This document shows, piece after piece, positions 1,686 through 63,563 of a stretch of DNA of 64,000 bases. How positions within the stretch are numbered: the first letter of the stretch is position 1; each line of letters opens with the position of its first letter. Where the stretch lies: assembly GCF_039727615.1 (NCBI RefSeq), contig NZ_CP152474.1, forward strand, positions 3,100,001 to 3,164,000. The letters are read 5' to 3'. The position numbers and the translations under genes are program-made. Under the pieces are notes generated by a model that did not search any database, was not told the origin of the DNA, and was given only the letters and a program-made list of their open reading frames with translations. This DNA comes from Leclercia sp. S52 (GTDB lineage Bacteria; Pseudomonadota; Gammaproteobacteria; Enterobacterales; Enterobacteriaceae).

Positions 1686-1776
1686 TGGCGGAGAGAGGGG
1701 GGATTTGAACCCCCGGTAGAGTTGCCCCTACTCTGGTTTTCGAGACCAGTCCGTTCAGCCGCTCCGGCATCTCTCC
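1686..1776 (-). tRNA. serU: tRNA-Ser (anticodon CGA), with one extra G in the T stem
   Basis: A class II tRNA with encoded CCA. The acceptor 5' strand is GGAGAGA, the anticodon loop is CTCGAAA (anticodon CGA, reads UCG) and a long variable arm is present. It sits upstream of mtfA, as serU does in E. coli. The T-stem 5' strand has five G, but its partner strand has six C (read as six G at 1697-1702 on the plus strand). The gene is therefore 91 rather than 90 nt and the helix would carry a bulge. This matches the window-wide G5-to-G6 pattern and is probably a base-calling error. Confidence 0.95.
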
Positions 1777-1869
1777 GTTTTGATGGTTGCCATCATGCCG
1801 GGTAATTTGGCATTTTAACAGACCATAACCGGTCAATTTTGTTCAAGTGACGAGTTTGCGAGCAAAGCG

Positions 1870-2667
1870 ATGATTAAGTGGCCCTGGAAATCGAATGAAT
1901 CCGCCCGAAGCGCGGCGCTGCCGTGGGAAGAGGCGCTGGCGATCCCCGTCCTGTCCACTTTATCGGATGAGGATAAATCGCGTCTGGTGCAGCTTGCCAT
2001 ACGATTCTTACAGCAAAAACGTCTGGTACCGCTACAGGGTTTTGAACTCGACGATCGCAAGAGCACCCGTATCGCCCTGCTCTTCTGCCTGCCGGTACTG
2101 GAACTGGGTATCGAGTGGCTGGACGGTTTCCATGAAGTGCTGATCTATCCGGCGCCCTTTGTGGTGGACGATGAATGGGAGGATGATATCGGTCTGGTGC
2201 ACAGTCAGCGAATGGTGCAGTCCGGCCAGAGCTGGCAGCAGGGGCCGATTATCCTCAACTGGCTGGACATTCAGGACTCATTCGACGCCTCCGGCTTCAA
2301 CCTTATCATTCATGAAGTGGCGCACAAGCTGGACACCCGCAACGGCGATCGCGCCAGCGGCGTCCCTTTTATCCCGCTGCGTGAAGTGGCTGGCTGGGAA
2401 CACGACCTGCACGCCGCGATGAACAATATCCAGGATGAGATCGATCTGGTGGGCGAAAGCGCAGCCAGTATCGACGCCTATGCCGCCACCGATCCAGCCG
2501 AATGCTTTGCGGTGTTATCGGAATATTTCTTCAGCGCGCCCGAGCTTTTCGCCCCCCGCTTCCCGGCGCTGTGGCAGCGTTTTTGCCAGTTTTACCAGCA
2601 GGACCCGCTGCAACGGTTACGTGAAAATGACGGCCCGGGCGGAGATCCCGCTGCGCAAGTACACTAA
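1870..2667 (+). CDS. mtfA: MtfA, DgsA/Mlc titration factor (zinc peptidase)
   Basis: A cytosolic protein of 265 residues, the usual MtfA (YeeI) length. The metallopeptidase signature [10 protein letters not shown] places the zinc ligands at His148 and His152 and the catalytic Glu at 149. Family knowledge: MtfA binds the glucose repressor Mlc (DgsA) and relieves repression of ptsG and related PTS genes; it also has aminopeptidase activity. It lies between tRNA-Ser and tRNA-Asn, the conserved enterobacterial position. A run of six C near 2551 is in frame here (Ala-Pro-Arg codons), so it is a genuine six-base run, unlike the ones noted elsewhere. Confidence 0.95.
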
Positions 2668-2720
2668 ATCAGCACTCTGAGGCTTAATTAATCAATTGAA
2701 TCAGCGCGTTGAATTTAGTG

Positions 2721-2767: not shown

Positions 2768-2843
2768 TCCTCTGTAGTTCAGTCGGTAGAACGGCGGACT
2801 GTTAATCCGTATGTCACTGGTTCGAGTCCAGTCAGAGGAGCCA
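2768..2843 (+). tRNA. asnT: tRNA-Asn (GTT), copy 1
   Basis: A 76-nt tRNA with encoded CCA and anticodon loop CTGTTAA (anticodon GTT). The sequence is identical to the three other tRNA-Asn copies in the window. Its position after mtfA matches asnT of E. coli. Confidence 0.97.
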
Positions 2844-2851
2844 AATTAAAG

Positions 2852-2886
2852 AAGCCCGCTTAAGGAAACTTAAGCGGGCTTTTTGC
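2852..2886 (+). terminator. Rho-independent terminator of tRNA-Asn copy 1
   Basis: Stem AGCCCGCTTAAG / CTTAAGCGGGCT with a GAAA-type loop, followed by a T run. Nearly the same stem recurs at 6822, 11741 and 17652. Confidence 0.9.
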
Positions 2887-2902
2887 TTTTTAGCCTTTCT
2901 CA

Positions 2903-3235
2903 TCAAGTTAGCAGAGCTCCCAACCTGGCCAGAACTTCATTCATGACATTATCAGGCACTCGTTCCAGCTTTATACCATGACGCGCGCCCATATCTATGG
3001 TCCGGGGCTGATCGCAGCGAATCACGCCCGTAGTTTTCAAGCCCGCTTCATCCAGCGATACGGCAAAACCAGCAGTACGGGCGAACTTGCCGCCGGTAGT
3101 GACCGGAACCACAACAGGCAAGCGGGTAAGATGATTAAACGCAGCCTTCGATACGATCAGCACCGGGCGTTTTCCGCTTTGCTCATGCCCGGCGGTAGGA
3201 TCAAGTGAAACGAGCCAGATTTCCCCTCTGTCCAT
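2903..3235 (-). CDS. PemK/MazF-family toxin (endoribonuclease)
   Basis: A 110-residue protein with the N-terminal MazF/PemK signature RGEIWLVSLDP and GKRPVLIVSKAAFN, then a VVPVTT strand and IRCDQPRTID. These are typical of the CcdB/MazF fold. Known relatives (PemK, ChpB) cut mRNA at specific short sequences. The ATG follows directly after the antitoxin stop, and its ribosome site (AAGGAG) lies inside the last antitoxin codons, so translation is coupled. The toxin frame is intact while the antitoxin frame is shifted. An unopposed toxin would be hard to tolerate, which argues the antitoxin defect is not real or only partial. Confidence 0.9.
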   Translation of the reverse strand: MDRGEIWLVSLDPTAGHEQSGKRPVLIVSKAAFNHLTRLPVVVPVTTGGKFARTAGFAVSLDEAGLKTTGVIRCDQPRTIDMGARHGIKLERVPDNVMNEVLARLGALLT

Positions 3236-3494
3236 TTACAGGATCTCCTTTCCTGCAGCAGGCGCATCAATCCATTCCCGCTCTTCTTCACTGAGTTCGG
3301 CCTGCGGATCGCACTGTGCCAGCAGTTCAGCCAAGGAATAATGCGGGCGCGTTTGCGGTTCAACGATCAGGCAGCCCTTATCAATAGTCACACCGACCTC
3401 ACTGTCTGGTTGCAGGCCCAGTGTTTTCAAAACCGCGGGAGGCACTGCCAGCATAACGGAGCCCCCCACTTTTTTTCAGACGTGTTGTGTACAT
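3236..3494 (-). pseudogene. PemI/MazE-like antitoxin, +1 frameshift as written
   Basis: Translation from ATG at 3494 begins MYTTRLKK, the start of PemI-type AbrB-fold antitoxins. It then shifts frame in a run of seven A followed by GT and six G (plus-strand C run 3462-3467, T run 3470-3476). Removing one base restores a protein of exactly 85 residues, the length of PemI, continuing GGSVMLAVPPAVLKTLGL and ending with the YSLAELLAQCDP toxin-binding region. Without correction only an internal start near 3469 gives the C-terminal part. The N-terminal half should bind DNA and autorepress; the C-terminal half should neutralise the toxin. Confidence 0.85.
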
Positions 3495-3599
3495 AGAATC
3501 CCTCCAGATATTATATTTAAATATAACATCTGGATTTAATGATGTACATTTTCCAGGCAGGATCATTACGCTCTCCTTAGTGTAATGGTTTAGGCAGAT

Positions 3600-3902
3600 T
3601 TAAAGCGCAAAGCCGTAATGGGAGCCATCCGGCAAATCGACCTCGACGCGCAGCTTGCCCCCCGCCGCTTCAACATAGCGTTTCAGGGTAGAGAGCTTAA
3701 TGTCACGCCCGGCCTTTTCCATCCCCGCTATCGTCGGCTGCTTTAAGCCCAGCGCCTGGGCCATTTCGTTCTGCGTTTTATTCACTTTCTCACGCAGTTC
3801 GGCCAGATGGATGTTAAGGAGCATCTCCTCCGCTATAGCTTTGGCGGCCTCCACTACTTCAGGTTTTTCCTCTGCAAGCAGCTGTTCCAGCGTTCTGCCC
3901 AT
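3600..3902 (-). CDS. HigA-like antitoxin (XRE-type helix-turn-helix)
   Basis: A 100-residue protein. A helical N-terminal part leads into an XRE/HTH_37-type helix-turn-helix (NKTQNEMAQALGLKQPTIAGMEKAG shortened: NEMAQALGLKQPTIAGME). It ends with the sheet-forming tail GGKLRVEVDLPDG common in HigA2-type antitoxins. It lies three bases downstream of the toxin gene, in the toxin-first order typical of higBA pairs. It presumably binds the inverted repeat at 4289-4312 to autoregulate. A six-C run at 3658-3663 is in frame. Confidence 0.88.
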   Translation of the reverse strand: MGRTLEQLLAEEKPEVVEAAKAIAEEMLLNIHLAELREKVNKTQNEMAQALGLKQPTIAGMEKAGRDIKLSTLKRYVEAAGGKLRVEVDLPDGSHYGFAL

Positions 3903-3905
3903 ACC

Positions 3906-4259
3906 TCACTCCTTTCCTTCTTTATTGTTCAGATAAGCCGTTAATTCACGATCCGCCAGTGGGATCATCTCCTCATAGAAGCGTTTTTCGTTCCCGGCTT
4001 TGTTACCCGCACAAAGGACGATCCCTGTACGGAACGGATCGAATGCGAAGAATGCCCGCAAGGGCTGACCACCACACTGCACCCGTAACTCTTTCATATT
4101 GTGATAGCGGGAACGCTTGATAGTGTCCGCCCAGGGTCGCGGCAGCAGCGGGCCCTTTGTCTGCAGTATGATTAACGCCGCCAGCATAGCGCTACGTTCC
4201 CGGTCATCCAGCGAACGTAACCAACGATCAAACGTGTCCGTCGTTTCAATCTTCCACAC
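3906..4259 (-). CDS. HigB-like RelE/ParE-superfamily toxin
   Basis: A 117-residue basic protein of the phage-derived Gp49/HigB group (DUF891). It begins MWKIETTDTFDRWLRSLD, has the central MKELRVQCGGQPLRAFFAFDP sheet region (QCGGQPLRAFFAFDP) and then GIVLCAGNKAGNEKRFYEEM, with catalytic-type Arg/Lys residues near the end. Known members are ribosome-dependent mRNA endonucleases. It is first in a two-gene operon with the HTH antitoxin. Activity and partners are inferred from family and gene order. Confidence 0.88.
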   Translation of the reverse strand: MWKIETTDTFDRWLRSLDDRERSAMLAALIILQTKGPLLPRPWADTIKRSRYHNMKELRVQCGGQPLRAFFAFDPFRTGIVLCAGNKAGNEKRFYEEMIPLADRELTAYLNNKEGKE

Positions 4260-4288
4260 AAGTCCTCCCTGATAATATAGGTTAAAAT

Positions 4289-4312
4289 CTATATAGGTTA
4301 AAGCCTATATAG
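4289..4312. promoter_or_regulatory. Inverted repeat upstream of the toxin-antitoxin operon, probable autoregulatory operator
   Basis: Perfect 9-bp arms CTATATAGG and CCTATATAG flank a TTAAAG centre, 30-53 bp upstream of the toxin start. A partial direct repeat of ATATAGGTTAAA lies just before it (from 4276). The position over the promoter fits HigA-type self-repression. Confidence 0.7.
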
Positions 4313-4423
4313 AAATTATCTTTTTTGCTGGAGGAAGAAAGTGTGGTTGCGGAAACCTGGACGAGACTTCGCAAGAAACATCATCATGCAATGTAACGGC
4401 GTTCCTCGCCGGAAGCGGGGTAG

Positions 4424-4444
4424 AAAAAACCCCGCGATGCGGGG
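4424..4444 (-). terminator. Rho-independent terminator of cbl
   Basis: On the minus strand CCCCGC-ATC-GCGGGG is followed by TTTTTTC, just past the cbl stop codon. Confidence 0.88.
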
Positions 4445-4453
4445 TTGGTTGGC

Positions 4454-5404
4454 CTAAATCTGGTAGTCAATCGCCACTTCTTCCGGTTCCATAACCTGCC
4501 GTTTGATCTCATCCACCGACAGCCCGGCGTTGCAGAGCTCGATAAAGCGCCAGACATAGTTGCGCTGCAGCTGGCCGCGCTTAAGGCCGAGCCAGACGGT
4601 GTTGGCATCAAACAGGTGGCGGGTATCGAGGCGCACCAGGCTACCCTGCTCGCGCTCGCCGCCGGACTGTTCCGCCACCAGCCCAATTCCCAGCCCCAGC
4701 TCGACGTAGGTGCGGATCACATCGGAGTCCTGGGCGCTGAGCACCACATCCGGCGTCAGCCCTTTGCGGTTAAAGGCCTCGTCAATACGCGAACGCCCGG
4801 TAATCCCCTGACGGTAGGTAATTAGCGGCCATTTGGCGATATCTTCAAGGGTCAGCGGCGAGACCTGGGTCAGCGGATGGTCGACCGGCAGCAGCAGGCT
4901 GTGATGCCAGCGGAACCACGGGAACGCGGCCAGCAGCGGATCGTTGCTTAAGCGCTCGCTGGCGATACCGATATCCGCCCCGCCGTTTTGCAGCAGGACT
5001 TCAATCTCCTGGGGCGTGCCCTGGATCAATTCCAGACGCACGTCCGGGAACAGTTCGCGGAAGGCCTTGATCACCGGCGGCAGGCTGTAGCGGGCCTGGG
5101 TGTGGGTGGTAGCGATGGTCAACACGCCGGAGGCATCGTTGGTAAAGAGATCGGCCAGACGACGCACGTTGCTGGCTTCATTAAGAATGCGTTCGGCAAT
5201 GGTCAACAGCGCCTTGCCGGGCTCGGTCATACCCAGCAGGCGTTTGCCACGACGAATGAAGATCTCAATGCCCAGCTCCTCCTCCAGCTCACGGATATGG
5301 CGGCTGACGCCCGACTGGGAGGTATAGAGCATGTTGGCGACCTCGGTCAGGTTGTAATCCCGACGGGCCGCCTCACGGATAATTTTAAGTTGCTGGAAAT
5401 TCAC
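4454..5404 (-). CDS. cbl: Cbl, LysR-type regulator of sulfur starvation genes
   Basis: A 316-residue LysR-type regulator. The N-terminal winged helix reads MNFQQLKIIREAARRDYNL and then SQSGVSRHIRELEEELGIEI, characteristic of the CysB/Cbl branch. The C-terminal effector domain is full length. Known role: activates tau and ssu sulfonate-utilisation genes under sulfate limitation, with adenosine 5'-phosphosulfate as the antagonist ligand. It lies downstream of nac with a gap of 96 bases, the conserved pairing in enterics, where nitrogen control by Nac extends to cbl. Confidence 0.93.
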   Translation of the reverse strand: MNFQQLKIIREAARRDYNLTEVANMLYTSQSGVSRHIRELEEELGIEIFIRRGKRLLGMTEPGKALLTIAERILNEASNVRRLADLFTNDASGVLTIATTHTQARYSLPPVIKAFRELFPDVRLELIQGTPQEIEVLLQNGGADIGIASERLSNDPLLAAFPWFRWHHSLLLPVDHPLTQVSPLTLEDIAKWPLITYRQGITGRSRIDEAFNRKGLTPDVVLSAQDSDVIRTYVELGLGIGLVAEQSGGEREQGSLVRLDTRHLFDANTVWLGLKRGQLQRNYVWRFIELCNAGLSVDEIKRQVMEPEEVAIDYQI

Positions 5405-5500
5405 GGTTCACTCCGGCGCATCTGACATGACGCTATTGTTAGAGTGTGCCCGCCGTGAGAACAAATAATAAAAACCCGCAACTTATACCTTTATGGAATA

Positions 5501-6418
5501 TCAACTGACCAGCTGCAGCTCGCGGTTCTCCAGCGACGGACGGCTGACCAGCGACATCAGAATCTCTTTCACCGCCTGCGCCTGCGGCGACAGCGCACCG
5601 CGCGCCGAAACGTTCAGCGACAGCGGCAGGCTCATCGACGGCGAGGAAATCCGCGCCATCCAGCCGTTGGCGGCGCTAGAGAGCGAGCGGGCCGCTGATT
5701 CAGGCAGGACCGTCACACCCATTCCGCTGGCGATAGCGGCGGTCAGCGTGGAGATGGAGTCGATCTCACCGATGATTTTGGCCGTCAGGCGGCGCAGCGA
5801 GAAAGCTTCATCAACGCGCAAACGCACGGCGCTGTAGTCGCGAGGCAGGAACAGATTCATCTCGGCCACCGCGGTTAAATCCACGCTCTGCCCCGGGCAA
5901 TCGCGTGTTCCCACGAGGAAGAGATCTTCTTTCAGCAGCGGCTGGCTGGTGATCCCCGCGACGGGTGAACGGTCATAGAGCACCGCCATATCCAGCTGTC
6001 CGCCGAGCAATTTATCGTTCAGCGCCGAACCGCTGTTCTCATGGAGATAGACCAGCACTTCCGGCAGCTCGGCGCGTACCGCCTGCAGCAGCGGCATCGT
6101 GACCGACGAGGCCGCCGTGCCAGGCGCCAGGCCGATAGAAACTTGCCCGCTCAGCGTCTGTCCGACATTGCCCACTGCCAGCTGCGCCTGTTCGCACTGG
6201 CGCAGAATGGTACGTGCGTGGGTATAGAGGATCTTGCCCGCTTCGGTAGGGGTCACGCCGCGTTTCGTGCGGATCAACAGCTGCTGATCCAGTTCACCTT
6301 CCAGAGTGGCCACCTGCTGGCTCAGTGCCGGCTGTGCGATATGCAACACCTCAGCGGCCTGGGTCAGGCTACCGATATCGACGATTTTTACGAAGTATTT
6401 CAGTCGTCTTAAGTTCAT
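5501..6418 (-). CDS. nac: Nac, nitrogen assimilation control regulator
   Basis: A 305-residue LysR-family regulator starting MNLRRLKYFVKIVDIGSLTQ at 6418. An upstream in-frame ATG exists at 6544 but would extend across the promoter, so 6418 is chosen. The helix-turn-helix is HIAQPALSQQVATLEGEL. The C-terminal domain is full length and ends RELQLVS as in Klebsiella Nac. Known role: couples sigma-54/NtrC control to sigma-70 genes such as hut, put and ure, and represses gdhA. It needs no co-inducer. A sigma-54 promoter and an NtrC-like site are visible upstream. Confidence 0.94.
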   Translation of the reverse strand: MNLRRLKYFVKIVDIGSLTQAAEVLHIAQPALSQQVATLEGELDQQLLIRTKRGVTPTEAGKILYTHARTILRQCEQAQLAVGNVGQTLSGQVSIGLAPGTAASSVTMPLLQAVRAELPEVLVYLHENSGSALNDKLLGGQLDMAVLYDRSPVAGITSQPLLKEDLFLVGTRDCPGQSVDLTAVAEMNLFLPRDYSAVRLRVDEAFSLRRLTAKIIGEIDSISTLTAAIASGMGVTVLPESAARSLSSAANGWMARISSPSMSLPLSLNVSARGALSPQAQAVKEILMSLVSRPSLENRELQLVS

Positions 6419-6473
6419 TTTGCCCCCTGTACGAAATGCGTTGCCGGTTCCGGCGCGAATGTACTGAGGGTTT

Positions 6474-6489
6474 TGCAAGATGCTTGCCA
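6474..6489 (-). promoter_or_regulatory. Sigma-54 promoter of nac
   Basis: On the minus strand the sequence is TGGCAAGCATCTTGCA, with GG and GC at the -24/-12 spacing. It matches the sigma-54 consensus and lies about 55 bases upstream of the nac start. Confidence 0.88.
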
Positions 6490-6604
6490 GTTTTGCGCAG
6501 AGGTCCGATATGTCCGCTAAGTGGCGGAAAATAAGGAAATCCAATCGCTGCCGTCGCTTTTAAACCTGAAACAGCGGTTTATGATCTGCCCCATTCGGGG
6601 TATA

Positions 6605-6621
6605 TACGCACCAAAAACGTG
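6605..6621. promoter_or_regulatory. Probable NtrC enhancer site for nac
   Basis: CGCACCAAAAACGTGCA matches 14 of 17 positions of the NtrC palindrome (GCACCA ... TGGTGC). It lies about 130 bp upstream of the sigma-54 promoter, a normal enhancer distance. The remainder of the 6419-6737 gap holds only this control region and the following tRNA promoter. Confidence 0.7.
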
Positions 6622-6690
6622 CAATCCGCTGTGTAAAACATCAGTTTGCTGATTTTGTCAGCAAACGATCTCAACAGGCGGGATCACCCT

Positions 6691-6719
6691 TTGACAAGTG
6701 CAGGCGACGCCGCTAATAT
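6691..6719 (+). promoter_or_regulatory. Sigma-70 promoter of tRNA-Asn copy 2
   Basis: TTGACA at 6691, a 17-bp spacer and TAATAT at 6714, followed by a GC-rich discriminator before the tRNA. Confidence 0.82.
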
Positions 6720-6737
6720 TCGCCCCGTTCACACGAT

Positions 6738-6813
6738 TCCTCTGTAGTTCAGTCGGTAGAACGGCGGACTGTTAATCCGTATGTCACTGGTTCGAGTCCA
6801 GTCAGAGGAGCCA
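6738..6813 (+). tRNA. asnV: tRNA-Asn (GTT), copy 2
   Basis: A 76-nt tRNA with encoded CCA, identical to copy 1, including about 10 bases before the 5' end. It lies upstream of nac and before ldtA, which fits asnV of E. coli, although a fimbrial operon now separates it from ldtA. Confidence 0.95.
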
Positions 6814-6821
6814 TATTTAAG

Positions 6822-6857
6822 AAGCCCGCTTAAGGAAACTTAAGCGGGCTTTTTTGC
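6822..6857 (+). terminator. Rho-independent terminator of tRNA-Asn copy 2
   Basis: The same AGCCCGCTTAAG / CTTAAGCGGGCT hairpin as at 2852, followed by six T. Confidence 0.9.
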
Positions 6858-6888
6858 TTTGGTGCCAACAGCGTCGGCACCGCCGGGT

Positions 6889-7416
6889 TTACTGGTATTC
6901 GAAAGAAGCCACGATCGCTGAAGAAACGTCACCGGGCATGACTGCTCCTGCCTTCGAATAGACGCGTGCCTGAAGTTTAAAGGTGGTATTTCCCCCTTCA
7001 ACGGCACCGGTTAATGAGCTGTTGTTACTCAGAATGGTTCCCGTGGTTTGCTGAGATAACTCAACGGCAGTATTGGTTGCAGGTTTCGTCGCGTTGTTTG
7101 CCCACATCGTGGCATCTGTTGCGTCCGGGGTGCCGGTAAAGGTCACTTTTACGTTAGTGGTACTTGCCGGACAACCGGTCACCGGTAAATCAAAGGCCGT
7201 CATTGCCGACCCCGTTCCGGCCGCCTCTAAAGAATTCGCCAGAATGGATTGCCCTAAATCCACGTTTAACGCGTCGGAGCCACCGTTAAGCGTTTTACAC
7301 GGAGACGCAATTACTTTTCCGGTGACATTAATACTCACGCTATCTGCCGCGTAAATATTACCCGCAAACAGTACAGCAGAAAGGGACGCGGTCAAATAAC
7401 ATAAACATTTTTTCAT
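6889..7416 (-). CDS. Fimbrial subunit (type 1-like pilin)
   Basis: A 175-residue pilin from ATG 7416, preceded by an AAGGTGG ribosome site; an in-frame ATG at 7434 overlaps that site and is less likely. A lysine-rich signal peptide ends near NIYAADS. The mature part has the pilin hallmarks: VNVTG-like opening (ISINVTGKVIASPC is seen as SINVTGKVIASPC), a second Cys in VTGCPAS, and the C-terminal beta strand SSAIVASFEYQ, whose penultimate Tyr is used for chaperone-usher recognition. It is the last gene of the operon. Its position after the adhesin is unusual for a major subunit, but no other pilin gene is present. Confidence 0.87.
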   Translation of the reverse strand: MKKCLCYLTASLSAVLFAGNIYAADSVSINVTGKVIASPCKTLNGGSDALNVDLGQSILANSLEAAGTGSAMTAFDLPVTGCPASTTNVKVTFTGTPDATDATMWANNATKPATNTAVELSQQTTGTILSNNSSLTGAVEGGNTTFKLQARVYSKAGAVMPGDVSSAIVASFEYQ

Positions 7417-7456
7417 TTTAGCCCACCTTGGCATGATGTTGAGACATTACATAATG

Positions 7457-8414
7457 TCATTGATATGTCAGCGTCAGCGTAGCGGTTGAATTAGCTTCAC
7501 CAACGGTGACTGAATTTCTTGTTTGATAATATCGGGCGGTAATAGGAAATGATTCTCTCCCGCCGCTGGATGTTTTTAACGCAAGCCGGGTATTAATAAT
7601 GAGGGGCTTACCGTCATATAATAACTGCACCCCAACGCCTCGCGCGGTATTAGCGTCTCCTTGATTATTTAATGCCATTACGCTGGCATCACTCACATCC
7701 GGATTTTGTTGCCCGTTCAACGTGACATTTATATTGGCAGATTTATCACAATCTAATCCCAGATTCTGGGTGCTGGTTTTTGCAGGCGTAAATCCCGGCT
7801 CTGTGCCAAAATCCGCTTTTGAAACAGTGCCTATCGGGAACGTTAAATTAGGCGTGGTGATTGAACAGGCCACCTGGGTAACGCCCCCGCCGATCATATT
7901 AATGGTCACTGGCGTAATGCCTGATACCGACCAGGTGCCAATTTGCCCGATACTGAATTGGCCTGACTGAATATCGCCCGTTTTATATAATTTATAACTC
8001 ATTGGGGGGAAGATCCACTGAACCTTCACCCGTATTGTCAGAGGATGGCGGATTGTCCAGATATCCCCATGTCAGATCTACCGCAATAGCCACGCCGGGA
8101 ATATTGGTCGCATAAGCATGGGTAATTGATGTCGCTACGCCACCCAGATAAACCATTTTGTAATAGTTAGTGTTGGTACTCTCACTACACTCCAGCAGCT
8201 TCTGGCCTGTCCCCGTTGAACTTGAATATATCACTGAGCCAACGGGTACATCTCTTTGCACAATAATGTTGTTGGGAGAAAAGCTCAGGGTTTGAGGCCC
8301 TTGCCCGTCGGCGAACTGACAGGTTGCAAACACATTAAAGCTGGAGCACCACAATACCATTATTAGCAAGGCGCCAAAGGTTTTAGCGCCGATAATTTTA
8401 TTTGCATATTTCAT
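7457..8414 (-). pseudogene. Two-domain fimbrial tip adhesin, +1 frameshift as written
   Basis: As written the frame breaks in a run of six G at 8004-8009. The upstream half starts at 8414 with a signal peptide (ends NVFATC) and an adhesin-type receptor domain. The downstream half resumes with YKLYKTGDI, the conserved end of FimH-like receptor domains. It continues with a pilin domain (TQVACSITTPNLTFPIG) and ends in the C-terminal strand STATLTLTYQ. Removing one G joins them into a single 318-residue protein, a normal length for a fimbrial adhesin. The start overlaps the usher stop by 17 bases. The receptor is unknown. Confidence 0.86.
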
Positions 8415-10929
8415 TGCTTAACACCACTCCGGAATCAGCTTCCGCTGCATGAAGCACATAATTAACCCGGCATTGTTCATTCGCCTCCAGGCCCCAACGA
8501 GCCATTAGCGCGCCGCTGTTTTCCAGCCCGGTCAGGTAGACCTGACCCTGATCCCCCACAATAAATCCGGCGGAATTTTTGTCTGTGGCAAGGGTCACCG
8601 TGGCCCCGAAGGGAACGGGTTGTCCATTTTCCCGTGTCAGGGTCATTAATACGCGAGTCCCCACGTTGGCGATATATTTCGCTCTGACCACCGCCCCGCG
8701 CGTGGGAATGACAGTCTGGGTCGTTAATTGCAGCTCAACATCGTCAGGGAGCGTTTCCGTATCCAGGCTCAGGCTATTCTTGCGATACGGCGACACGTTG
8801 CTGGCAACGGTATAACCGCGAAAATCGGTTTTCACGCCGGTCTGGCCCGTGACGCCCACGCCCGGGGCGCCCGGGGCTTTTATCAGCGCAATGGTTTCGC
8901 CAAAAGGTTGCGCCAGCGTCACGCCGTTTGCGTGAACCAGAACACCGCCATTGAGGCCATAGTTCATGCGTTGCATGTTTTCGTCAGTGCTGTAGCCGCC
9001 GGTCACTTCGCCATAGGTTCCGTGATAATCAGTGCTAAGATTACCGGTATGACCCGCTCCGTCATTGCCATACCCTTGCTGCACGCTCCAGCTCAGGGCA
9101 TTTTCCTGCAGCGCCGTGCCGCTCAGACCCACCGTATGGGTTGTGTCCCCTTTCTTGCTGGTATTCAGACTGTAGCTGGCCCAGGTATTACTGAGGAATC
9201 GATCTAAAGGAATACTGACATTGAAAGCCAGGATCCGATCTTTATCGTAGGTTTTCCCGCCGCTGCCCTCTGCGCTCGCATTGTTGCTGGAGGTATAACT
9301 CAGCCCCCAGGTGATGCCGTTCCACGCATTGTTATAGCTGACGCTGTACGAGCTCATCGTCTTGTCAGCATTCCAGTACGCTTCCCGAATTGCGCTGCCG
9401 GTGAGAGAGCCGAAGGCGGGACCCAGCGTCTGACTGAGCGTCACTTCAGCGCGGTTACGCCGATGATCCTGCAACGAATCGCTCGCGCTGTCGGCGTCCA
9501 GCACTTCCTGCATGCCGTAATAGCCCGCGGTAGAGTAGCGATAGCTGGTCGCCGAGAAGTTGGTTCCGGTATCGGTAAAGTTTTTGCTGTAGCGCACGCG
9601 CCAGGCTTGCCCGCTCGTTTTGCTCCTCTTCTCAGGGCTCGACCAGGCCTGGGTAACATCCACGGACAACGCGCCGAATTCCCCCATATTATTACCGACG
9701 CCGATAGCAGAGGACTGATACGGACTGGACGCCTGTATTCCGCCATAAAGCGTGAAGCCCTTCGGCAGACCATAAATGGCGGTTCCCTGCATCAACGGGC
9801 GTTTTTCCACCTGGCTGTCACTGGGACGATACTGGCCGCCCGTCAGACTGTATTTCAGTCGCCCTTCTCGCTGCAGAACAGGCACAGAGGCATAGGGCAC
9901 CACAAACTCATGCTCGCTGCCGTCCGCTTCTTTAACGGTAACATTTAAATCACCGGCACCACCGGTCGGGTACATATCGGTAATTTCAAACGCGCCCGGG
10001 GCAACGTAGCTCTGGTAGATGATGTAGCCATTCTGGCGGATAACCACCTGAGCGTTGCTACGCGCAATGCCGCGCACCACGGGCGCATAACCTTTCTGAC
10101 TATCCGGCAGCATCTCATCGTCGGAGGCCAGTTGACCGCCGCGAAAGGGGATACTGTCAAAGACGTCGGAAGGCGATGAACTGTCGCCGAGCGTCAGCTG
10201 GCTTTTCAAAGGGATTATGTTGCGCTGGGCATAGGTGTAAACCGAATCCCACTGCGCCTTGCCGTCGGTATCGCGGCGCCAGGTGCTGTAATTACGCAGA
10301 CGCCAGGGGCCAATATTGATTCCCGGACGCAGGTTCGCGTACTGGCTATGACTGTTGTTCGTCGTGCTATTTCTGCCCCAGGTGTTATCGCCGCTGATGC
10401 TGTAGTTCAGCAGCAAAGCATTAATCCCTTCGTCCCACATTTCCGGTGCGACATAGCCGCGCGCCTGCGAAGTGAGTGCTGCCTGCGGAAAACTCAACAG
10501 CAGTTTTTGCGCACCAAAGATAAAATCGGCAGACGCCTGAGGAATGGCGGCTAAATTTGCGCATTCGCCTTCTTTATCGAGATCGGGAAAGCGATCGGTT
10601 TTGACCCCATAACTTTGCAGCAAACCTGACGACAGGCAAGGCTGGAGGCTATGATCACCCTGCGTGGTTGCAACCGACCTGAATTCAATTTCCCGGGTAT
10701 CTACCGTCTGATCGTTAACGACCACCTCAACGCGATATTTACCCGGCACCTGCGCGCCACGCGCAAAGGAGGAAAGATCGACGCCTTTCATGGAGGGATC
10801 ACCTACTTCAAGCAGTGCCGGATTAAAATACTCCTCGGCACAGGCGCTCTGCATTACACCGGGCAACGCCAGTGCAATCAAAAAGGCCAGACGAGCCGGT
10901 GGAAACGAGGAGTATAATATTGTGCGCAT
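8398..10929 (-). CDS. Fimbrial outer-membrane usher (FimD family)
   Basis: An 843-residue usher with a signal peptide ending near SACAEE. The N-terminal chaperone-binding domain begins YFNPALLEVGD. The long beta-barrel includes a plug region and the PVVRGIARSNAQVVIRQNGY usher signature (usual GxAxSxAxVxVxQNG form). The C-terminal domains end with paired cysteines. It assembles and exports pilus subunits delivered by the chaperone. It lies between the chaperone and adhesin genes, nine bases after the corrected chaperone stop. Full length, no internal break. Confidence 0.94.
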   Translation of the reverse strand: MRTILYSSFPPARLAFLIALALPGVMQSACAEEYFNPALLEVGDPSMKGVDLSSFARGAQVPGKYRVEVVVNDQTVDTREIEFRSVATTQGDHSLQPCLSSGLLQSYGVKTDRFPDLDKEGECANLAAIPQASADFIFGAQKLLLSFPQAALTSQARGYVAPEMWDEGINALLLNYSISGDNTWGRNSTTNNSHSQYANLRPGINIGPWRLRNYSTWRRDTDGKAQWDSVYTYAQRNIIPLKSQLTLGDSSSPSDVFDSIPFRGGQLASDDEMLPDSQKGYAPVVRGIARSNAQVVIRQNGYIIYQSYVAPGAFEITDMYPTGGAGDLNVTVKEADGSEHEFVVPYASVPVLQREGRLKYSLTGGQYRPSDSQVEKRPLMQGTAIYGLPKGFTLYGGIQASSPYQSSAIGVGNNMGEFGALSVDVTQAWSSPEKRSKTSGQAWRVRYSKNFTDTGTNFSATSYRYSTAGYYGMQEVLDADSASDSLQDHRRNRAEVTLSQTLGPAFGSLTGSAIREAYWNADKTMSSYSVSYNNAWNGITWGLSYTSSNNASAEGSGGKTYDKDRILAFNVSIPLDRFLSNTWASYSLNTSKKGDTTHTVGLSGTALQENALSWSVQQGYGNDGAGHTGNLSTDYHGTYGEVTGGYSTDENMQRMNYGLNGGVLVHANGVTLAQPFGETIALIKAPGAPGVGVTGQTGVKTDFRGYTVASNVSPYRKNSLSLDTETLPDDVELQLTTQTVIPTRGAVVRAKYIANVGTRVLMTLTRENGQPVPFGATVTLATDKNSAGFIVGDQGQVYLTGLENSGALMARWGLEANEQCRVNYVLHAAEADSGVVLSNEICK

Positions 10930-10938
10930 AATGAGTTT

Positions 10939-11617
10939 TTAAATAGCGGCGTGATGGGTCGGTCCGACGCCACCAAAGTCATTGATCAGTTTGAATGTGA
11001 CAGGGCCAGCGCTGACGCCCGCCGGGAGCGAAAACGTCGCCGATGCCCCCCGGGGCTACATAGGTCGGTTCAGGCACGCTTTTTCCCGCGACGGTAATCT
11101 CGTTAAAATTCATATAATAATTTCCCGGATTACTTACCGAAATACGGTTCGCCGCTATTTTCCAAATCAGTTGTTTCGCGAAATCTTCTGGATCATTTCT
11201 TTTCAAGGAAACCGGGCGATAAATTAATTTGATGCGTGTTTTCACCGCAATCTGAAGCGAATTGGCTTTTTTCTCTGCTGCAGGAATGGCCTTGATATTC
11301 AACCAGTACATGGATTCTTTATTGTCCGGCACATTCCCGGCACGGACTATTCTCATCACATTCTCCTGACCGCGATCCAGTCGGTACAGTGGAGGTGTAA
11401 TAATAAAGGGGATTTTCCCGGCGATATTGTCCTGGTTTTCAAACCATGACTGAATAAGATAAGGCACGTTATCCGGATTTGAAACGCCGATTGCCGCTTC
11501 CTTTTTTCCGCCATCGTAAATCACGCGCGTTCCGCCGATATTAATGCCCGCGTGGACTGACGATACGCAAAATAGCACCAGCAAACCTGGCAAAAGGTTA
11601 TTCCAGAAACGTTTCAT
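10939..11617 (-). CDS. Periplasmic fimbrial chaperone (PapD/FimC family), C-terminal frameshift as written
   Basis: First gene of the fimbrial operon. A signal peptide ends at VHAGIN, followed by the two Ig-like domains of PapD-type chaperones: YLIQSWFEN, FIITPPLYRL, and ESMYWLNIKAIP with the conserved Pro. As written the frame shifts in a six-C run at 11046-11051 after PTYVAPGG and ends early at residue 212. Removing one base gives ASATFSLPAG, a continuous second domain and a stop at 10939, for 225 residues. That is the family norm and places the end nine bases from the usher start. In the pathway it caps pilins by donor-strand complementation. Confidence 0.9.
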
Positions 11618-11740
11618 AAAAAACCTGTGGCTTTAATAAGCTGATAAATAAGTCGAGAGAGTATTTATCTTTTCATCAATGCCAACAATGAAAACTCAGC
11701 GTACTTTTATGCTCACAGATGCTTTACCTGCATAAAACGC

Positions 11741-11773
11741 AAAAGCCCGCTTAAGTTGCCTTAAGCGGGCTTG
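11741..11773 (-). terminator. Rho-independent terminator of ldtA
   Basis: A hairpin GCCCGCTTAAG / CTTAAGCGGGC followed on the minus strand by TTTTGCG, just past the ldtA stop. It uses the same stem as the tRNA-Asn terminators. The 11618-11740 stretch between the chaperone start and this hairpin presumably holds the fimbrial promoter; I see no clear boxes. Confidence 0.82.
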
Positions 11774-11791
11774 TTACTTTTACCGTCTGGC

Positions 11792-12745: not shown

Positions 12746-12982
12746 TATTCCCTTCCTCTGTCACTCCACGTATCTGACAAGCATAGCCTTGCTGTTGCGT
12801 TTATAGCCAGATAACAAATCATCATGTCGATAAATATCACCCGTTTAGCTCACGCCGGGATAAAAACGTTTTCAGCTGTCCGCTGTCGGGGTAGTCTCAT
12901 ACCCGTCGCTATTTTCAGGCGACCGCAATGTGAGTGATCTTCTTCCTATACCTATAAGAAAATAACGTCAGACAGGACCACT

Positions 12983-14294
12983 ATGGACACCACCCTCGCT
13001 TCCTCGTCCCCGGACGGGGCCATACCATCGCTCAATCGCGCGCGCCGCGCGGCCCTCGGCAGCTTTGCCGGGGCGGTAGTCGACTGGTACGATTTTCTGC
13101 TGTACGGCATTACCGCCGCGCTGGTCTTTAACCGCGAATTTTTCCCGCAGATCAGCCCGGCGATGGGCACGCTCGCCGCCTTTGCTACTTTTGGCGTCGG
13201 CTTTCTGTTTCGCCCGCTCGGCGGGGTGATCTTCGGTCACTTTGGCGACAAGCTGGGCCGCAAGCGGATGCTGATGCTAACGGTGTGGATGATGGGCATC
13301 GCCACCGCGCTGATTGGTATCCTGCCCTCGTTTGCTACGATTGGCTGGTGGGCGCCGGTTCTGCTGGTCACCCTGCGCGCCGTTCAGGGCTTCGCCGTCG
13401 GCGGCGAATGGGGCGGCGCGGCGCTGCTGTCGGTGGAAAGCGCCCCGGCACGTAAAAAAGCCTTCTACAGCAGCGGCGTGCAGGTGGGATATGGCGTTGG
13501 TCTGCTGCTCTCCACCGGGCTGGTCTCGCTGATCAGCACCTTCTCGACCGACGAGCAGTTTCTGAGCTGGGGCTGGCGGATCCCGTTCCTGTTCAGCATC
13601 GTGCTGGTGCTGGGTGCTTTGTGGGTGCGTAAAGGGATGGACGAGTCCGCCGAATTCGAGCAGCAGCGTCAGCAACCTGCAGAGAAGCGCCGCCTGCCGG
13701 TGATGGATGCGCTGATCCGCCATCCGGGGGGCCTTTCTGAAAATCATCGCCCTGCGCCTGTGCGAGCTGCTGACCATGTATATCGTCACGGCCTTTGCCC
13801 TGAGCTACTCCACCCAGAACCTCGGCCTGCCCCGCGAGCTGTTTCTCAATATTGGCCTGCTGGTGGGCGGCATCAGCTGCCTGACCATCCCCTGCTTTGC
13901 CTGGCTGGCAGACCGCTTTGGCCGCCGCCGGGTCTATATTACCGGCGCGCTAACCGGGGCCCTCAGCACCTTCCCGTTCTTTATGGCCCTTGAAGCCCAG
14001 TCGGTATTCTGGATTGTGGTGTTCGCTATCCTGCTGGCAAATATCGCCCATGACATGGTGGTGTGCGTCCAGCAGCCGATGTTCACCGAGATGTTTGGTG
14101 CCAGCTACCGCTACAGTGGCGCGGGTGTCGGCTATCAGGTGGCGAGCGTGGTCGGCGGCGGGTTTACGCCCTTTATTGCCGCCGCGCTGGTGACCTTCTC
14201 CGGCGGCGACTGGCACAGCGTGGCCATCTATCTGCTGGCCGGTTGTCTGCTCTCTGCCGCCACGGCGTTGCTGATGAAACAGGCTTCATCCTGA
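12983..14294 (+). pseudogene. shiA: ShiA shikimate transporter, +1 frameshift as written
   Basis: A major facilitator superfamily metabolite:H+ symporter. The N-terminal half reads AALGSFAGAVVDWYDFLLYG and carries the GHFGDKLGRKRML loop motif and the RAVQGFAVGGEWGGA helix. The frame shifts in a run of six G at 13726-13731. With five G the protein continues HPGAFLKIIALRLCELLT into the C-terminal half (second loop WLADRFGRRRVY) and gives 436 residues, the ShiA length. As written the first half ends at 13993 and the second half could only restart internally, so a functional 12-helix transporter would not form. Confidence 0.9.
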
Positions 14295-14364
14295 TACTTT
14301 TGTTTCACATCCAGGTGACATACTATCGGTGAACGCCGTACACCTGTGGAACAAGGAGACAGAG

Positions 14365-15819: not shown

Positions 15820-15837
15820 TCATAAAAAAGGAAAGTT

Positions 15838-17604: not shown

Positions 17605-17614
17605 TCTGGCTGAC

Positions 17615-17637
17615 GCCCTCACCCACCGGGTGAGGGC
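17615..17637. repeat. Perfect inverted repeat after the M24 peptidase gene
   Basis: GCCCTCACCC and GGGTGAGGGC around a 3-base loop, immediately after the stop codon. It resembles a REP-like palindrome and has no clear T run, so it may be an mRNA-stabilising or weak termination element. Confidence 0.6.
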
Positions 17638-17651
17638 GAACCTGAAAAAGC

Positions 17652-17685
17652 AAAAAAGCCCGCTTAAGTTTCCTTAAGCGGGCTT
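17652..17685 (-). terminator. Rho-independent terminator of tRNA-Asn copy 3
   Basis: The GCCCGCTTAAG / CTTAAGCGGGC stem followed on the minus strand by TTTTTTGC. It may also serve the convergent M24 gene. Confidence 0.88.
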
Positions 17686-17693
17686 CTCAAATA

Positions 17694-17769
17694 TGGCTCC
17701 TCTGACTGGACTCGAACCAGTGACATACGGATTAACAGTCCGCCGTTCTACCGACTGAACTACAGAGGA
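17694..17769 (-). tRNA. asnW: tRNA-Asn (GTT), copy 3
   Basis: A 76-nt tRNA identical to the other copies but on the minus strand. It lies just downstream of yeeO on the same strand and has its own promoter, as asnW does in E. coli. Confidence 0.96.
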
Positions 17770-17787
17770 ATCGTGTGAACGGGGCGA

Positions 17788-19503: not shown

Positions 19504-19519
19504 AACGCTCCACAACGAT

Positions 19520-26475: not shown

Positions 26476-27411
26476 TTAATCACCTGATTTCTCAGCGACG
26501 CCCTGCGCATAAACGGCAGCGATAGCACTATTTGCTAAAATTTCTTGTCGCCACCATGCACTGGCAAGCCCCGCAGTCTGGTCATTCCAGCCAATCCATA
26601 CGGAATCATAACTGGATTGCGCGATAACCTGTTTCTCGACCAGCGCACCGCTTTCAATAAAACGCTGGGCTAAATAACGCGGCAGATAGCCACAGCCTAA
26701 GCCGCTAATTTGCAGCTCCAGCTTGGTTTTAAAATCAAATACGGTAATGGCTTCCTGATCGTCCAGGAGCTGCGAAGAGGCCGCACTGCCCGGTAATGAA
26801 CTGTCACCCACCACAATCGCGCGATAATTTTTAATCGTCCGGCGGTTTACCGGCTCCGGCTCCTGGGCCAGCGGATGGTGTGGAGCGACAACGAATACCT
26901 GTTCCAGTTGCCCAAGACAGGCAAAGCCAAAATCGCTGAGCTGCGGTGGCTCGTGCAGCGCGCCGACAACGATATCTGCCCGCCCCTGCACCAGTGACTC
27001 CCAGGAGCCGGCTAACACACCATTGATAAACTTGAGACGGGTAACGCTGTGTCGCTCGTAAAAGGCCTCGATAAGCGGTGCCAGCAGGGAAAACGGAAAG
27101 GTATCATCCACACCAATAATCAGCTCGTTTTCCCAGCCCTGATGCAGTTTTACGGCCTGCTTTTCCAGCTCACGTACCGTATGCAATACGTCCCGCCCTT
27201 TCTCCAGCAGCATCTGCCCGGTGCGGGTAAAGCGCGCCCGGTGGCCGGAGCGGTCGAGGATCTGAATATTGAGATCGCTTTCGAGCTTATGAACGGTGTA
27301 GCTGAGCGCTGAGGGGGTTTTAAAGAGCTTCGCCGAGGCCGCAGCAAAGCTCCCCTCCTTTTCCAGTGCATCAAGGATAATAAGGACATCCAGCAGCGGT
27401 TTCATGCTCAC
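26476..27411 (-). CDS. yeeY: YeeY, LysR-type regulator
   Basis: 311 residues. The N-terminal helix-turn-helix (SFAAASAKLFKTPSALSYTV) belongs to LysR and the C-terminal half is a full effector domain. Target genes are not settled. It follows yeeZ closely and the two may be co-transcribed. The start is preceded by an AAGGGGGGTGAGC ribosome site containing a non-coding run of six G. Confidence 0.9.
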   Translation of the reverse strand: MSMKPLLDVLIILDALEKEGSFAAASAKLFKTPSALSYTVHKLESDLNIQILDRSGHRARFTRTGQMLLEKGRDVLHTVRELEKQAVKLHQGWENELIIGVDDTFPFSLLAPLIEAFYERHSVTRLKFINGVLAGSWESLVQGRADIVVGALHEPPQLSDFGFACLGQLEQVFVVAPHHPLAQEPEPVNRRTIKNYRAIVVGDSSLPGSAASSQLLDDQEAITVFDFKTKLELQISGLGCGYLPRYLAQRFIESGALVEKQVIAQSSYDSVWIGWNDQTAGLASAWWRQEILANSAIAAVYAQGVAEKSGD

Positions 27412-27446
27412 CCCCCTTGTGGTGCGCTTACGCTCCGCCAGCGGCG

Positions 27447-28562: not shown

Positions 28563-28599
28563 AGCCCCCGGAAGATCATCTTCCGGGGGGCTTTTTTTT
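28563..28599 (+). terminator. His operon attenuator, with one extra G
   Basis: The left arm AAGCCCCCGGAAGAT has five C, while the right arm ATCTTCCGGGGGGCTT has six G (28585-28590), followed by T8. The expected perfect hairpin is broken by a bulged G, the same G5-to-G6 change seen in coding genes. The alternative pairing segments lie between 28499 and 28560. Confidence 0.93.
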
Positions 28600-29549: not shown

Positions 29550-35055
<5,506 letters not shown>

Positions 35056-43222: not shown

Positions 43223-44123
43223 TTATTTTTTATGTACCCGTGGGTTTTCACCCCTCACATTGCGTAAGCCATCGAGCAAGCCAGCAATAAATGTATACGC
43301 ATACTCTTTTTTTGCTTTTTTGAGTGAGAATGAGAAGGAAAGAATGGACTACTGAAAACAGAACTTCCCGAGCGGCTAAAAGCTTTGGTACATGCGGGTA
43401 CCTTACTAAATGAATCGAGTTTCTTACCCGATAATAACGCCGATTGGCGCTATGTACAGGCACACAAAAGCCCATAAAATCAAAGCTTTTATCACCAATT
43501 GAATGCAGCATTTTGGCTTGTGGGATGACATGGACTTTTATTCCATGTGAAAAACATCTCAAACACCATTCTGTGTCAACATAGTCAATGAATAGAGCAG
43601 AGTCCATCACGCCAACTTTATTAAAAATATCGCTACAAACGATTGTACCCGATGAAATTACTGTTGAAGTAGTAAATACTGCGTTCTTACCATGTGAATA
43701 ATGCTTAACGCGCCGTCCATTTTTCTTTATATCAGTGATGGCGTACTCAAAGCCTTTTTGTTCATCATAGAATACAGGCGCACAAATCTCATACTGATTA
43801 TTTTCCATTGGCGCTTTTAATGAAGCAATAAAATCATTTTCAATCTTACTATCTTGATCGAAGAAAATAATATATTTGTAGGCTTTCTTCAGGCACTCTG
43901 TAATTCCAATATTTTGAGCCTCAGCAATCCCTTTATTACCGCCAAGGGAAATATAAAAGCAACCTTCATTAGCTTCAAGTATTCCATTTTTATAAGTACT
44001 ATTATCAATAACAATAGCATCACAAGACTGATGTTCTAATCCTTTTATTAATGATATAACACGATCATTATTAGGGTTATATGTCACTATAACAGCACAT
44101 GTATTATTATTTTTTAGACTCAT
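43223..44123 (-). CDS. Family 2 rhamnosyltransferase, C-terminal frameshift as written
   Basis: A GT2 enzyme of the RfbN/rhamnosyltransferase type: CAVIVTYNPNNDRV, the GGNKGIAEAQNIGI motif, FFDQDSKIE (DxD-like) and DYVDTEWCLRC. As written it ends at 43248 after 291 residues with an unrelated tail. Dropping one A in the A-runs on the minus strand (plus-strand T runs 43307-43313 or 43316-43321) gives an EYAYTFIAGLLDGLRN tail ending at 43223. That makes 299 residues, which looks native for this family. Likely transfers L-rhamnose; the acceptor is unknown. Confidence 0.82.
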
Positions 44124-57930: not shown

Positions 57931-57980
57931 CGTTGTTCCTGTTTCAGGGTCCCCTCCCCCCGTCGGGAGAGGGGCAAGGA

Positions 57981-60897: not shown

Positions 60898-60900
60898 GAT

Positions 60901-62124
60901 TTATCCCCGAATATCTGCAATAAACTGGCTCAGCACGTTCTCTTTCTCGAGCGTGCGTTCGGCATAGTCACGGGCTACCGTGTTCTCTTTGGGCATCGTC
61001 AGCGCCTGTTCGATCCCGGCCACCAGCGCGGGCACCGACTCGGGCTCAACGCACACTGCGATCCCCGGCAGGTTGTCGCACAGCTGGCCCAGCTCGGTGT
61101 GGGCTTCGGCGGTGATCACCGCGTTGCCGCCCACCGCCAGAATATTGGTCAGTTTTGACGGCAGGACCGCATCCGCCGCGCCGCGCTTTTGCACCACCAG
61201 ATGGCAGTCGGCCATCTTCAGCAGCGCCGGTAAGGCGTCGTAAGACTGCAGCGGGAAGAACTGAACGTTCTGCAGGCCGCGCTCGCGGGCCATTTTCTCC
61301 AGCCGCGCTTTGCCGCCACCCTGGCCGACAATCACAAACTGCCAGGGCTTATCGCTGAGCGCTGCGGCGGCGTCGATGACGTTCTCCAGCCCCTGCTTCT
61401 CACCGATGTTGCCGGAATAGAGAACAATCTTTTGCGCCTCAGCCAGACCCAGCTGTGCACGCAGTGCCGCCACGTCTTCAGGTGTGACGTCGCGAAAACG
61501 CGCCACTTCGGACCAGTTAGGGAAGAAGATCACCTTCTCCGCCGCCACGCCCTTCTCCTGCGCCTTGTTCATCATCGAGCGGGAGATGGTCGAAACATAA
61601 TCCACGTTGTGCAGGCCGCTGCGCTCAAAGGCGCTGGCCAGTTTCGCGACTTTGCCGCCCTTGCCTTTGCCCGCCATGCCCAGTCCGAGCATGGCGTCCA
61701 CTTCATAATCCTGAATGTGCAGCAGGGTGCGGGCCCCGGAGAGCTTGCCCAACAGGCGCATGCCCGGGGTGCAAAACAGGGTCGGCACCACGCCGATAAT
61801 GCGATCCGGCTTCCAGCGACGTTGCGCCATCAGCGGGAAGAAACTGCTCAGGGCAAAGCTGCCCAGATGAATCAAACGCTTTAAGGTCGAGGGCTGCTTC
61901 GGCACGTACAGCGGGCAGCGCCAGACGGTGGCGGCCCCCTCTTCACGGCGGTAGCGCCAGCTTGAGTAGCGCTCACCCACCTGCCACTCCGGGTAGTAAG
62001 GTGGGGCCGTAATGACCCGCACCTCGTGACCCTGGCTGGCCATCCACTCCACCATCTCGCCGGTGTATTTACCGATACCGGTCAGCTCGGGGGAGTAGTT
62101 AATTCCGTACACGAGGATCTTCAT
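60901..62124 (-). CDS. wcaI: WcaI, colanic acid glycosyltransferase (GT4)
   Basis: 407 residues, GT-B fold: [21 protein letters not shown] at the N-terminus and the [19 protein letters not shown] motif in the C-terminal domain. Published models assign it fucosyl transfer to glucose of the colanic acid unit. Overlaps wcaH by four bases. Confidence 0.95.
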
Positions 62125-63563
62125 AGTCCCGGCACCCCAGCCTGATCCAGGAAGTAGGCCCGGCTGTTGTCATGCACGTTATCGCTTGCCAGCAGGACAT
62201 CCGGTTTTAGCCAGCGGTAGTCGTCGTGCTGAGAATCAGGCAGACGCAGGTCTGCCTGATTCACCTGCAGGCGATAGCCGATCACCACGTAGTGGGTGGT
62301 GAAATCGGTGCCGGAAAAGTTATCGTCATAGAAGTGCTGCCAGACCCCGTAAAACTGGCCCGCCGTCATCGGCAGGCGCAGCCCCAGCTCCGCCTCAGTA
62401 AGACGCGCAAAGGCATTTTCCAGCGTCTCGTCTTTCTGCACTCGTCCGCCCGGCACGAACCAGAAGCCCTGCGCCGGACGGTTGGTGCGTTGCCCGAGCA
62501 GAAACTCGCCCCGCTCGTTCTCCACAATCAGATCGATGGAGATCAGCGGAGTGGAACGCACAACAGTGGCAAAATCTTCCTGACTTAAAAACATATCTAC
62601 CCCCCGGAAGCGCTGCTGATTTTCCAGGAACCACTGGTAAGTGCTGGCCAGCCCTGCGGCCAGCGTCACCTCGTGGAACCAGCCCAGCTGATGCAGACGG
62701 GTCACATCCAGCAGCTTGCGCGGCGTGCCGTCGGGTTTGCTGGCATCGAAGGCCACGCGCCCCTTGTACCCCACCACCTGAGCGATGGTCTCAGCCAGCT
62801 CGCGAATGGTGCAGTCCACCCCGGTGCCGACGTTAATGTGCGACAGCATCGGCTCGGTGTTCTCCTGCCACACTTCGCGGGCCAGCTCCATCACGTGAAT
62901 GCTGGCGGCAGCCATGTCATCCACGTGCAGGAACTCGCGCATCGGCGTGCCGCTGCCCCACACCACCACTTCCGGCGCGTTGCTGACGGTCGCCTCGTGA
63001 AAACGACGCAGCAGCGCCGGGATCACGTGCGAGTTGCTCGGGTGGAAGTTATCGTTCGGGCCGTACAGGTTGGTCGGCATCACCGAGCGATAGTCGCGAC
63101 CGTACTGGCGGTTATAAGATTCGCACAGCTTGATCCCGGCAATCTTGGCGATGGCGTACGGCTCGTTGGTGGCTTCCAGCGTGCCCTGCAGCAGCTCGCT
63201 CTCGGCGATCGGCTGTTTCGCCATCTTCGGATAGATACAGGAGGATCCGAGGAACAGCAGCTTGTTCACGTTATGCAGATGCGCAGCGTGAATGATGTTG
63301 CTCTCGATCATCATGTTTTCGTAGATGAAATCCGCCGGGTAGGTATTGTTTGCAACAATACCGCCCACTTTTGCCGCCGCCAGATAGACCTGATCGATGC
63401 GCTGTTCGGCAAAGAAGGCCTGTACCGCGCCCGCATCCAGCAGGTTCAGCTCATCACGGTTGCGCAGCACCAGTTCGACGTTGCCGCGCTGCTCCAGCTG
63501 GCGGACAATCGCGGAACCCACCATCCCGCGATGACCGGCAACAAAAATTCGTTGTTTGCTCAT
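62121..63563 (-). CDS. fcl: Fcl (GDP-L-fucose synthase) fused in frame to WcaH (GDP-mannose mannosyl hydrolase) by an extra base
   Basis: Residues 1-321 are Fcl: [20 protein letters not shown]-binding, catalytic SSCIYP and [11 protein letters not shown] (Tyr-x-x-x-Lys). From residue 324 the protein is WcaH: starts [17 protein letters not shown], Nudix box [22 protein letters not shown] shortened to [13 protein letters not shown] plus TEAELGLRL. In E. coli these are two genes. Here the junction is a run of six G (plus-strand C 62600-62605); with five G, Fcl ends at TAG and WcaH starts at ATG 62594. So fcl is really 62597-63563 and wcaH (gmm) 62121-62594. A genuine bifunctional fusion is less likely. 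Confidence 0.92.

Follow-up and report, generated by a model that had tools for sequence, protein, structure and literature searches.

The window analysed here is a 64,000-nucleotide stretch of the chromosome of Leclercia sp. S52 (G000:C1:3100001-3164000; the genome under study, G000, is a single contig of 4,932,897 bases). It carries a serine transfer RNA (tRNA) gene, a PemI-like antitoxin region, fimbrial adhesin and chaperone genes, shiA, the his attenuator and hisB, a family 2 glycosyltransferase gene, and fcl and wcaH. An earlier note on these letters had described runs of six G or C where five were expected at eight of these loci, and an extra A at a ninth, and had favoured homopolymer over-calling in the assembly over a true mutator. 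Judging from sequence comparisons within and far beyond the window, the extra bases are almost certainly systematic homopolymer over-calls in the G000 assembly. The pattern is real in the sequence file, but not in the organism. G000 is the genome that represents its species, with a stated completeness of 99.96%.

We compared the window with G019, the closest of 40 relatives searched (94%), to which 374 kb of G000 aligned at 93.7% identity. All eight six-base runs listed in the note were found at their coordinates (Table 1), but the run totals had been underestimated: the window has 15 six-base G/C runs, not eight, and 32 five-base runs, not about two dozen, and no G/C run in its 64 kb is longer than six. 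Fourteen of the 15 six-base runs could be aligned to G019, where eight proved one base longer in the window and six had the same span. Six of the listed runs are among the eight longer ones, but at the other two (the PemI-like and adhesin loci) the difference lies beside the listed run; in the adhesin it was placed at 8010 by the aligner. The ninth break does differ from G019 by one base, but it is uncertain that this base is an A. The statement that all changes are insertions holds for the listed loci, but not for the whole window, which in cleanly aligned context has 12 extra and four missing single bases relative to G019. Three A/T runs absent from the note (3470-3476, 19681-19687, and 37890-37897) are longer than in G019, and a fourth (35666-35672), likewise unlisted, is shorter.

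Table 1. Coordinates of the runs and disturbed features in the window, with their comparison to relatives.
Feature	Coordinates	Strand	Observation
Six-base G run, T stem of tRNA-Ser (1686-1776)	1697..1702	-	Length unlike G019
PemI-like antitoxin region (name from the earlier note)	3462..3476	-	C run 3462-3467 same in G019; adjoining T run 3470-3476 differs in length
Fimbrial adhesin-like gene, broken frame	8004..8010	-	Pieces 7457-8029 and 7992-8414; G019 frame intact
PapD-like fimbrial chaperone gene, broken frame	11046..11051	-	G019 frame intact
shiA (shikimate transporter), broken frame	13726..13731	+	Longer than in G019
Six-base C run between genes	27411..27416	.	Differs from G019; same span in 50/60 named relatives aligned there; not listed in the earlier note
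Six-base G run, his attenuator region	28585..28590	+	Differs from G019, G002 and 64/80 named relatives; same span in 15/80, longer in 1/80
hisB, broken frame	32157..32162	+	Span differs from 78/80 named relatives
Family 2 glycosyltransferase gene	43307..43321	-	Net one-base length difference from G019 at 43315; exact base uncertain
Six-base C run outside genes	57956..57961	.	Length unlike G019; not listed in the earlier note
Run joining fcl and wcaH into one 480-aa frame	62600..62605	-	Frame 62121-63563, epimerase and NUDIX domains

The consequences for the genes are evident in the open frames. The longest sense stop-free stretch of hisB is 279 amino acids in G000 against 369 in G019, and where G000 has the fused fcl/wcaH frame, G019 has a separate frame with the GDP-mannose mannosyl hydrolase match. 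An open PemK/MazF-like toxin frame (2903-3235) adjoins the disturbed antitoxin, which would be an odd pairing if the break were real. The his region was also compared with 80 named loci (4.2 kb of his DNA; the nearest from Leclercia sp. 29361, 92.4%). In these relatives the attenuator G run varies naturally between five bases (64 of 80) and six (15 of 80), so that this site is not telling by itself. The length of the C run at 27411-27416 may likewise be natural, given its presence in most of the named relatives aligned there.

To analyze the run lengths more quantitatively, we counted length differences in two regions of the chromosome: 464 kb around the window (region 1, own coordinates 2.94-3.40 Mb) and a second stretch at 740001-900000 (region 2). 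Alignments shorter than 1000 bases or no more than 88% identical were dropped before gaps were counted, as were runs whose flanks (six columns on either side) contained a gap or more than three mismatches; run length classes refer to the inferred length. In region 1, G000 is the longer sequence at 188 single-base gaps to G019 and the shorter at 67 (102 and 33 in clean context). Extra bases are rare in G/C runs of three and four (2/6986 and 1/1405), and become frequent at five (36/277, two of them by two bases), six (17/35) and seven (2/3). In A/T runs of five to eight the counts are 6/648, 15/189, 12/52 (one by two bases) and 0/19. Missing bases number none to two per class, with one at G/C five and none at G/C six, so that the ratio of extra to missing in G/C runs of at least five over the 464 kb is 55 to 1, far beyond chance when tested. 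The change is therefore in one direction and rises with run length, with A/T runs of eight as the exception. A second relative, G002, gives the same result (extra bases at 18/146 G/C runs of five and 6/12 of six), and so does region 2, with 8/74 and 5/9 in G/C runs of five and six and 11/71 and 1/14 in A/T runs of six and seven. The earlier note had proposed comparing indel (insertion and deletion) rates across the whole genome; the excess recurs outside the window, and the window proved too small a frame for a pattern that it does contain.

These counts bear directly on the possibility that we are seeing ordinary species divergence, in which the runs of G000 would just happen to be a little longer and some of its pseudogenes genuine. 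Natural variation does exist at some sites, as at the his attenuator and at 27411-27416, and the loss of a single adhesin or antitoxin is common in nature. However, the control pair G002 and G019, neither of which is the suspect genome and both of which are labelled as other species of the same genus, has no extra base at G/C runs of five or six in either region: G002 against G019 in region 1 gave 0/125 and 0/7, with one missing base and 2/111 extra at A/T six, and G019 against G002 in region 2 gave 0/63 and 0/11, with one missing base and 1/12 extra at A/T seven. Together with the one-sided direction, this already contradicts divergence over the regions examined, and we regard it as an extremely improbable explanation.

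The same asymmetry appears in reading frames. From 345 G019 queries of at least 100 amino acids, 320 were counted at a coverage of at least 90% in G000, and the 25 without a match or below the cut-off were left out; the 320 were picked by length, so some may not be genes, and one lies antisense over hisB. Exactly one inserted base was found in 47 of these frames and exactly one missing base in four; 67 have some gap of a length not divisible by three. In G002, this set of frames shows four lone insertions and six lone losses among 216, and 90 with any non-triplet gap, a larger number that reflects the larger divergence. When G002 frames (212) were used instead, 20 lone insertions and three lone losses were found in G000, and four of each in G019. 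Among the 47 lone insertions, 33 fall in runs of at least six bases (28 G/C and 5 A/T). Thirty of the 47 affected frames were scanned for names: six, including the frame antisense to hisB, had no family, and the named ones include exoX, ptrB, cmoA, pyruvate kinase, shiA, alkA, thiD, apbC, galS, radD and ada, among others; none of the named frames is known to be essential in E. coli. If the 47 lone insertions (33 in runs of at least six) found over about 374 kb are typical of the whole 4.93 Mb, some 430 to 620 genes would be broken on paper only. Broken nonessential genes were dropped as a sole criterion, and essential clusters were examined on purpose instead.

For this purpose we used 144 E. 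coli K-12 genes as queries, of which we took 78 to be essential. Eight of the 78 had no match and one was less than 80% covered (rpoB, whose low coverage probably reflects the edge of the stretch), leaving 69. Among these 69, all at least 80% covered, five are split between frames in G000: murD, tsf, cdsA, dnaE and tilS, all of them essential in E. coli. Among the other genes the count is 7 of 60, including fhuB. No essential gene was split in G019 or G002, each of which has all 36 of the genes tested in a single frame. Relative to G019, exactly one extra base and no missing one was found in each of nine genes (murD, tsf, cdsA, dnaE, tilS, coaE, ilvI, hofB and dgt); in all nine it sits in a run of six or seven, or no more than eight alignment columns from one. 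In fhuB (region 2) there are four frame changes, all in the same direction and near runs of six to eight. coaE and rplX (the latter compared to E. coli only) have a lone inserted base relative to E. coli, yet were counted as being in one frame. There is no second copy to compensate for the breaks in dnaE and murD: dnaE matches G000 at one place only, where its open frame measures 1069, compared with 1166 in G019, G002, G009 and G018, and murD is a single copy in two pieces where the same four relatives have one frame of 471. E. coli does not survive the loss of functional DnaE, MurD, CdsA or EF-Ts. No cell could live with these genes as written, and the insertions must therefore be errors of the assembly.

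The ribosomal RNA (rRNA) operons offer a comparison within the genome itself. G000 has eight 16S and eight 23S copies, and between them we found nine sites of homopolymer length difference, every one an extra base in a G/C run and present in one to four of the eight copies; at one site tied four to four, the shorter form was used as the reference. The 20 extra bases are distributed over 3/232 run copies at G/C four, 8/64 at five and 9/24 at six, rates near those of the remaining chromosome, and none is missing. A/T runs showed no length change in 744 run copies, and the only other length difference among the G000 copies is a set of paired gaps resembling a natural stem variant. In the 16S genes of four relatives (30 of 32 copies; G002, G006, G009 and G018) there were no run differences, only paired variants in two genomes. 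The extra bases therefore strike essential genes and rRNA alike, as expected of over-calls that hit sites regardless of function, although the rates inside and outside genes are unequal (see below).

Another possibility is that the insertions are real and that transcriptional or ribosomal slippage within the runs restores the gene products, as happens at long A runs in certain reduced genomes. Here such rescue would be needed for up to one long frame in seven (47/320), at short G/C runs, and at four separate frame changes within fhuB; it would be of no help to the rRNA, and G002 and G019 lack this excess when compared with each other. We consider rescue by slippage vanishingly improbable.

A more serious alternative is that the strain is a true mismatch-repair-deficient mutator, its insertions arising from real replication slippage. 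According to PMC4702332, mismatch-repair-deficient P. aeruginosa lines carry 96.3% of their indels in G:C runs, with insertions 3.32 times as frequent as deletions and a peak at six. G000 displays that signature, with G:C-run indels in which insertions exceed deletions, and the bias toward one extra base, on which the earlier note had relied, does not discriminate between the two readings; as a criterion by itself it was rejected. The note's other argument, the involvement of hisB and an antitoxin, is no proof either, as both are dispensable in many conditions. Over-calling in the assembly is nevertheless supported on other grounds. E. coli-essential genes are split, which is at odds with viability, and the insertions in the rRNA copies are not shared among the copies. 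The note had asked whether mutS, mutL and mutH are intact; mutS (853 amino acids), mutL (617 amino acids), mutH and dnaQ, the four repair and proofreading genes that we checked, are all open, above curated cut-offs and over nearly the whole model length, so none of the first three seems to have been lost, an open frame being no proof of an active protein. A broken repair gene, which the note would have taken as evidence of real change, is in any case an ambiguous test, since over-calls might equally interrupt a repair gene on paper.

The mutator reading also predicts a dependence on replication strand. The same P. aeruginosa lines are reported (PMC4702332) to show a 4.2-fold leading/lagging bias of run indels. 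No such bias was seen in region 1, which was assigned to one replichore from negative GC skew only: extra bases occur at 15/119 G and 21/158 C runs of length five, and at 7/10 and 10/25 of length six (p 0.15). In region 2 the counts at length five are 7/49 and 1/25 (p 0.25). The neighbouring base, in contrast, has a strong effect. Over both regions, extra bases occur at 27/95 G/C runs of five where the C-reading strand goes on with T, but at 3/137 where it goes on with A (p 3e-9), which is the dependence that a read or consensus error would give. At length five, then, the extra bases follow local context and not replication strand, and the next-base dependence may be characteristic of the sequencing platform or of the consensus model used. 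Taking the split genes, the rRNA copies, the repair genes and the strand counts together, we judge a true mutator very improbable.

Several observations nevertheless weigh against over-calling as the full account. As aligned, 14 of the 47 lone insertions are not in a long run, some gaps having been set beside the run. Of the 255 single-base gaps to G019, 162 are something other than a simple one-base change in a run of at least three, a class that includes ordinary divergence as well as gaps set beside a run. The next-base effect seen at G/C five is absent at six. The essential-gene contrast with the relatives is borderline by itself (5/36 against 0/36, p 0.054); this evidence is decisive on biological, not statistical, grounds. 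Finally, extra bases are more frequent outside genes than inside, both at G/C five (9/27 against 35/324, p 0.003) and at A/T six (13/66 against 13/194, p 0.004), which is the pattern that selection on real mutations would give and a point in favour of a mutator; at G/C six the order is reversed, but not significantly (1/6 outside, 21/38 inside). Within the T context the gap between outside and inside persists (8/13 against 19/82, p 0.008), so that neighbouring-base context accounts for only part of the difference. Natural length change outside genes, or gene-guided correction, could be the cause of the difference. Since essential genes and rRNA are hit as well, this difference cannot save the mutator reading. 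There is a small chance that some of the longer runs, mainly outside genes, are real expansions of this lineage on top of the over-calling, with a mild true bias to longer G/C runs.

Two further features of the window concern its left part. Four tRNA-Asn(GTT) genes lie within 17 kb (2768-19595), an area that may be an integration hot spot, and around 3658, 8004 and 11046 the corresponding G002 stretch gave no usable alignment.

Systematic over-calling in the G000 assembly would thus explain a frequency of extra bases that climbs with run length from an onset of about five for G/C and six for A/T, a direction shared by both chromosomal regions and the rRNA operons, and a strong next-base dependence with no detectable strand preference that spares neither E. 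coli-essential nor dispensable genes. In a share of runs that depends on context, the reads or the consensus step would have added one base to the count, and correction with accurate reads was presumably absent. Pseudogene counts, losses of antitoxin or fimbrial functions, rRNA microheterogeneity and claims of hypermutation based on G000 are consequently unsafe, and the high stated completeness coexists with a lone inserted base in about one in seven long conserved frames. Moreover, over-calling mimics the indel pattern that has been published for mismatch-repair loss, so a mutator should not be diagnosed from that pattern alone. Artefact and mutator can be separated even without reads, by comparing the rRNA operons within a genome and inspecting its essential genes.

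It is instructive to compare G000 with known systems. Its errors resemble the long-read homopolymer errors described for Kastor (PMC12007338) in being single-base, tied to homopolymers and sufficient to break many genes on paper, and completeness scores (BUSCO in that case) understate the errors in both. The sections of that report on which we draw stress deletions after homopolymers in a nanopore R9.4 assembly, however, while the errors in G000 are almost all insertions, with an onset at G/C five. In 454 pyrosequencing, PMC3116506 gives insertions as the commonest error (0.541% against 0.359% deletions, full length), partly dependent on homopolymers; those figures are at the level of reads, and the likeness is one of pattern only. 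A biological counterpart is mismatch-repair-deficient P. aeruginosa (PMC4702332), where G:C runs of five to seven are affected and insertions exceed deletions as in G000. In those lines the changes are real; in G000, E. coli-essential genes are broken, the repair genes are open and the strand bias is unseen.

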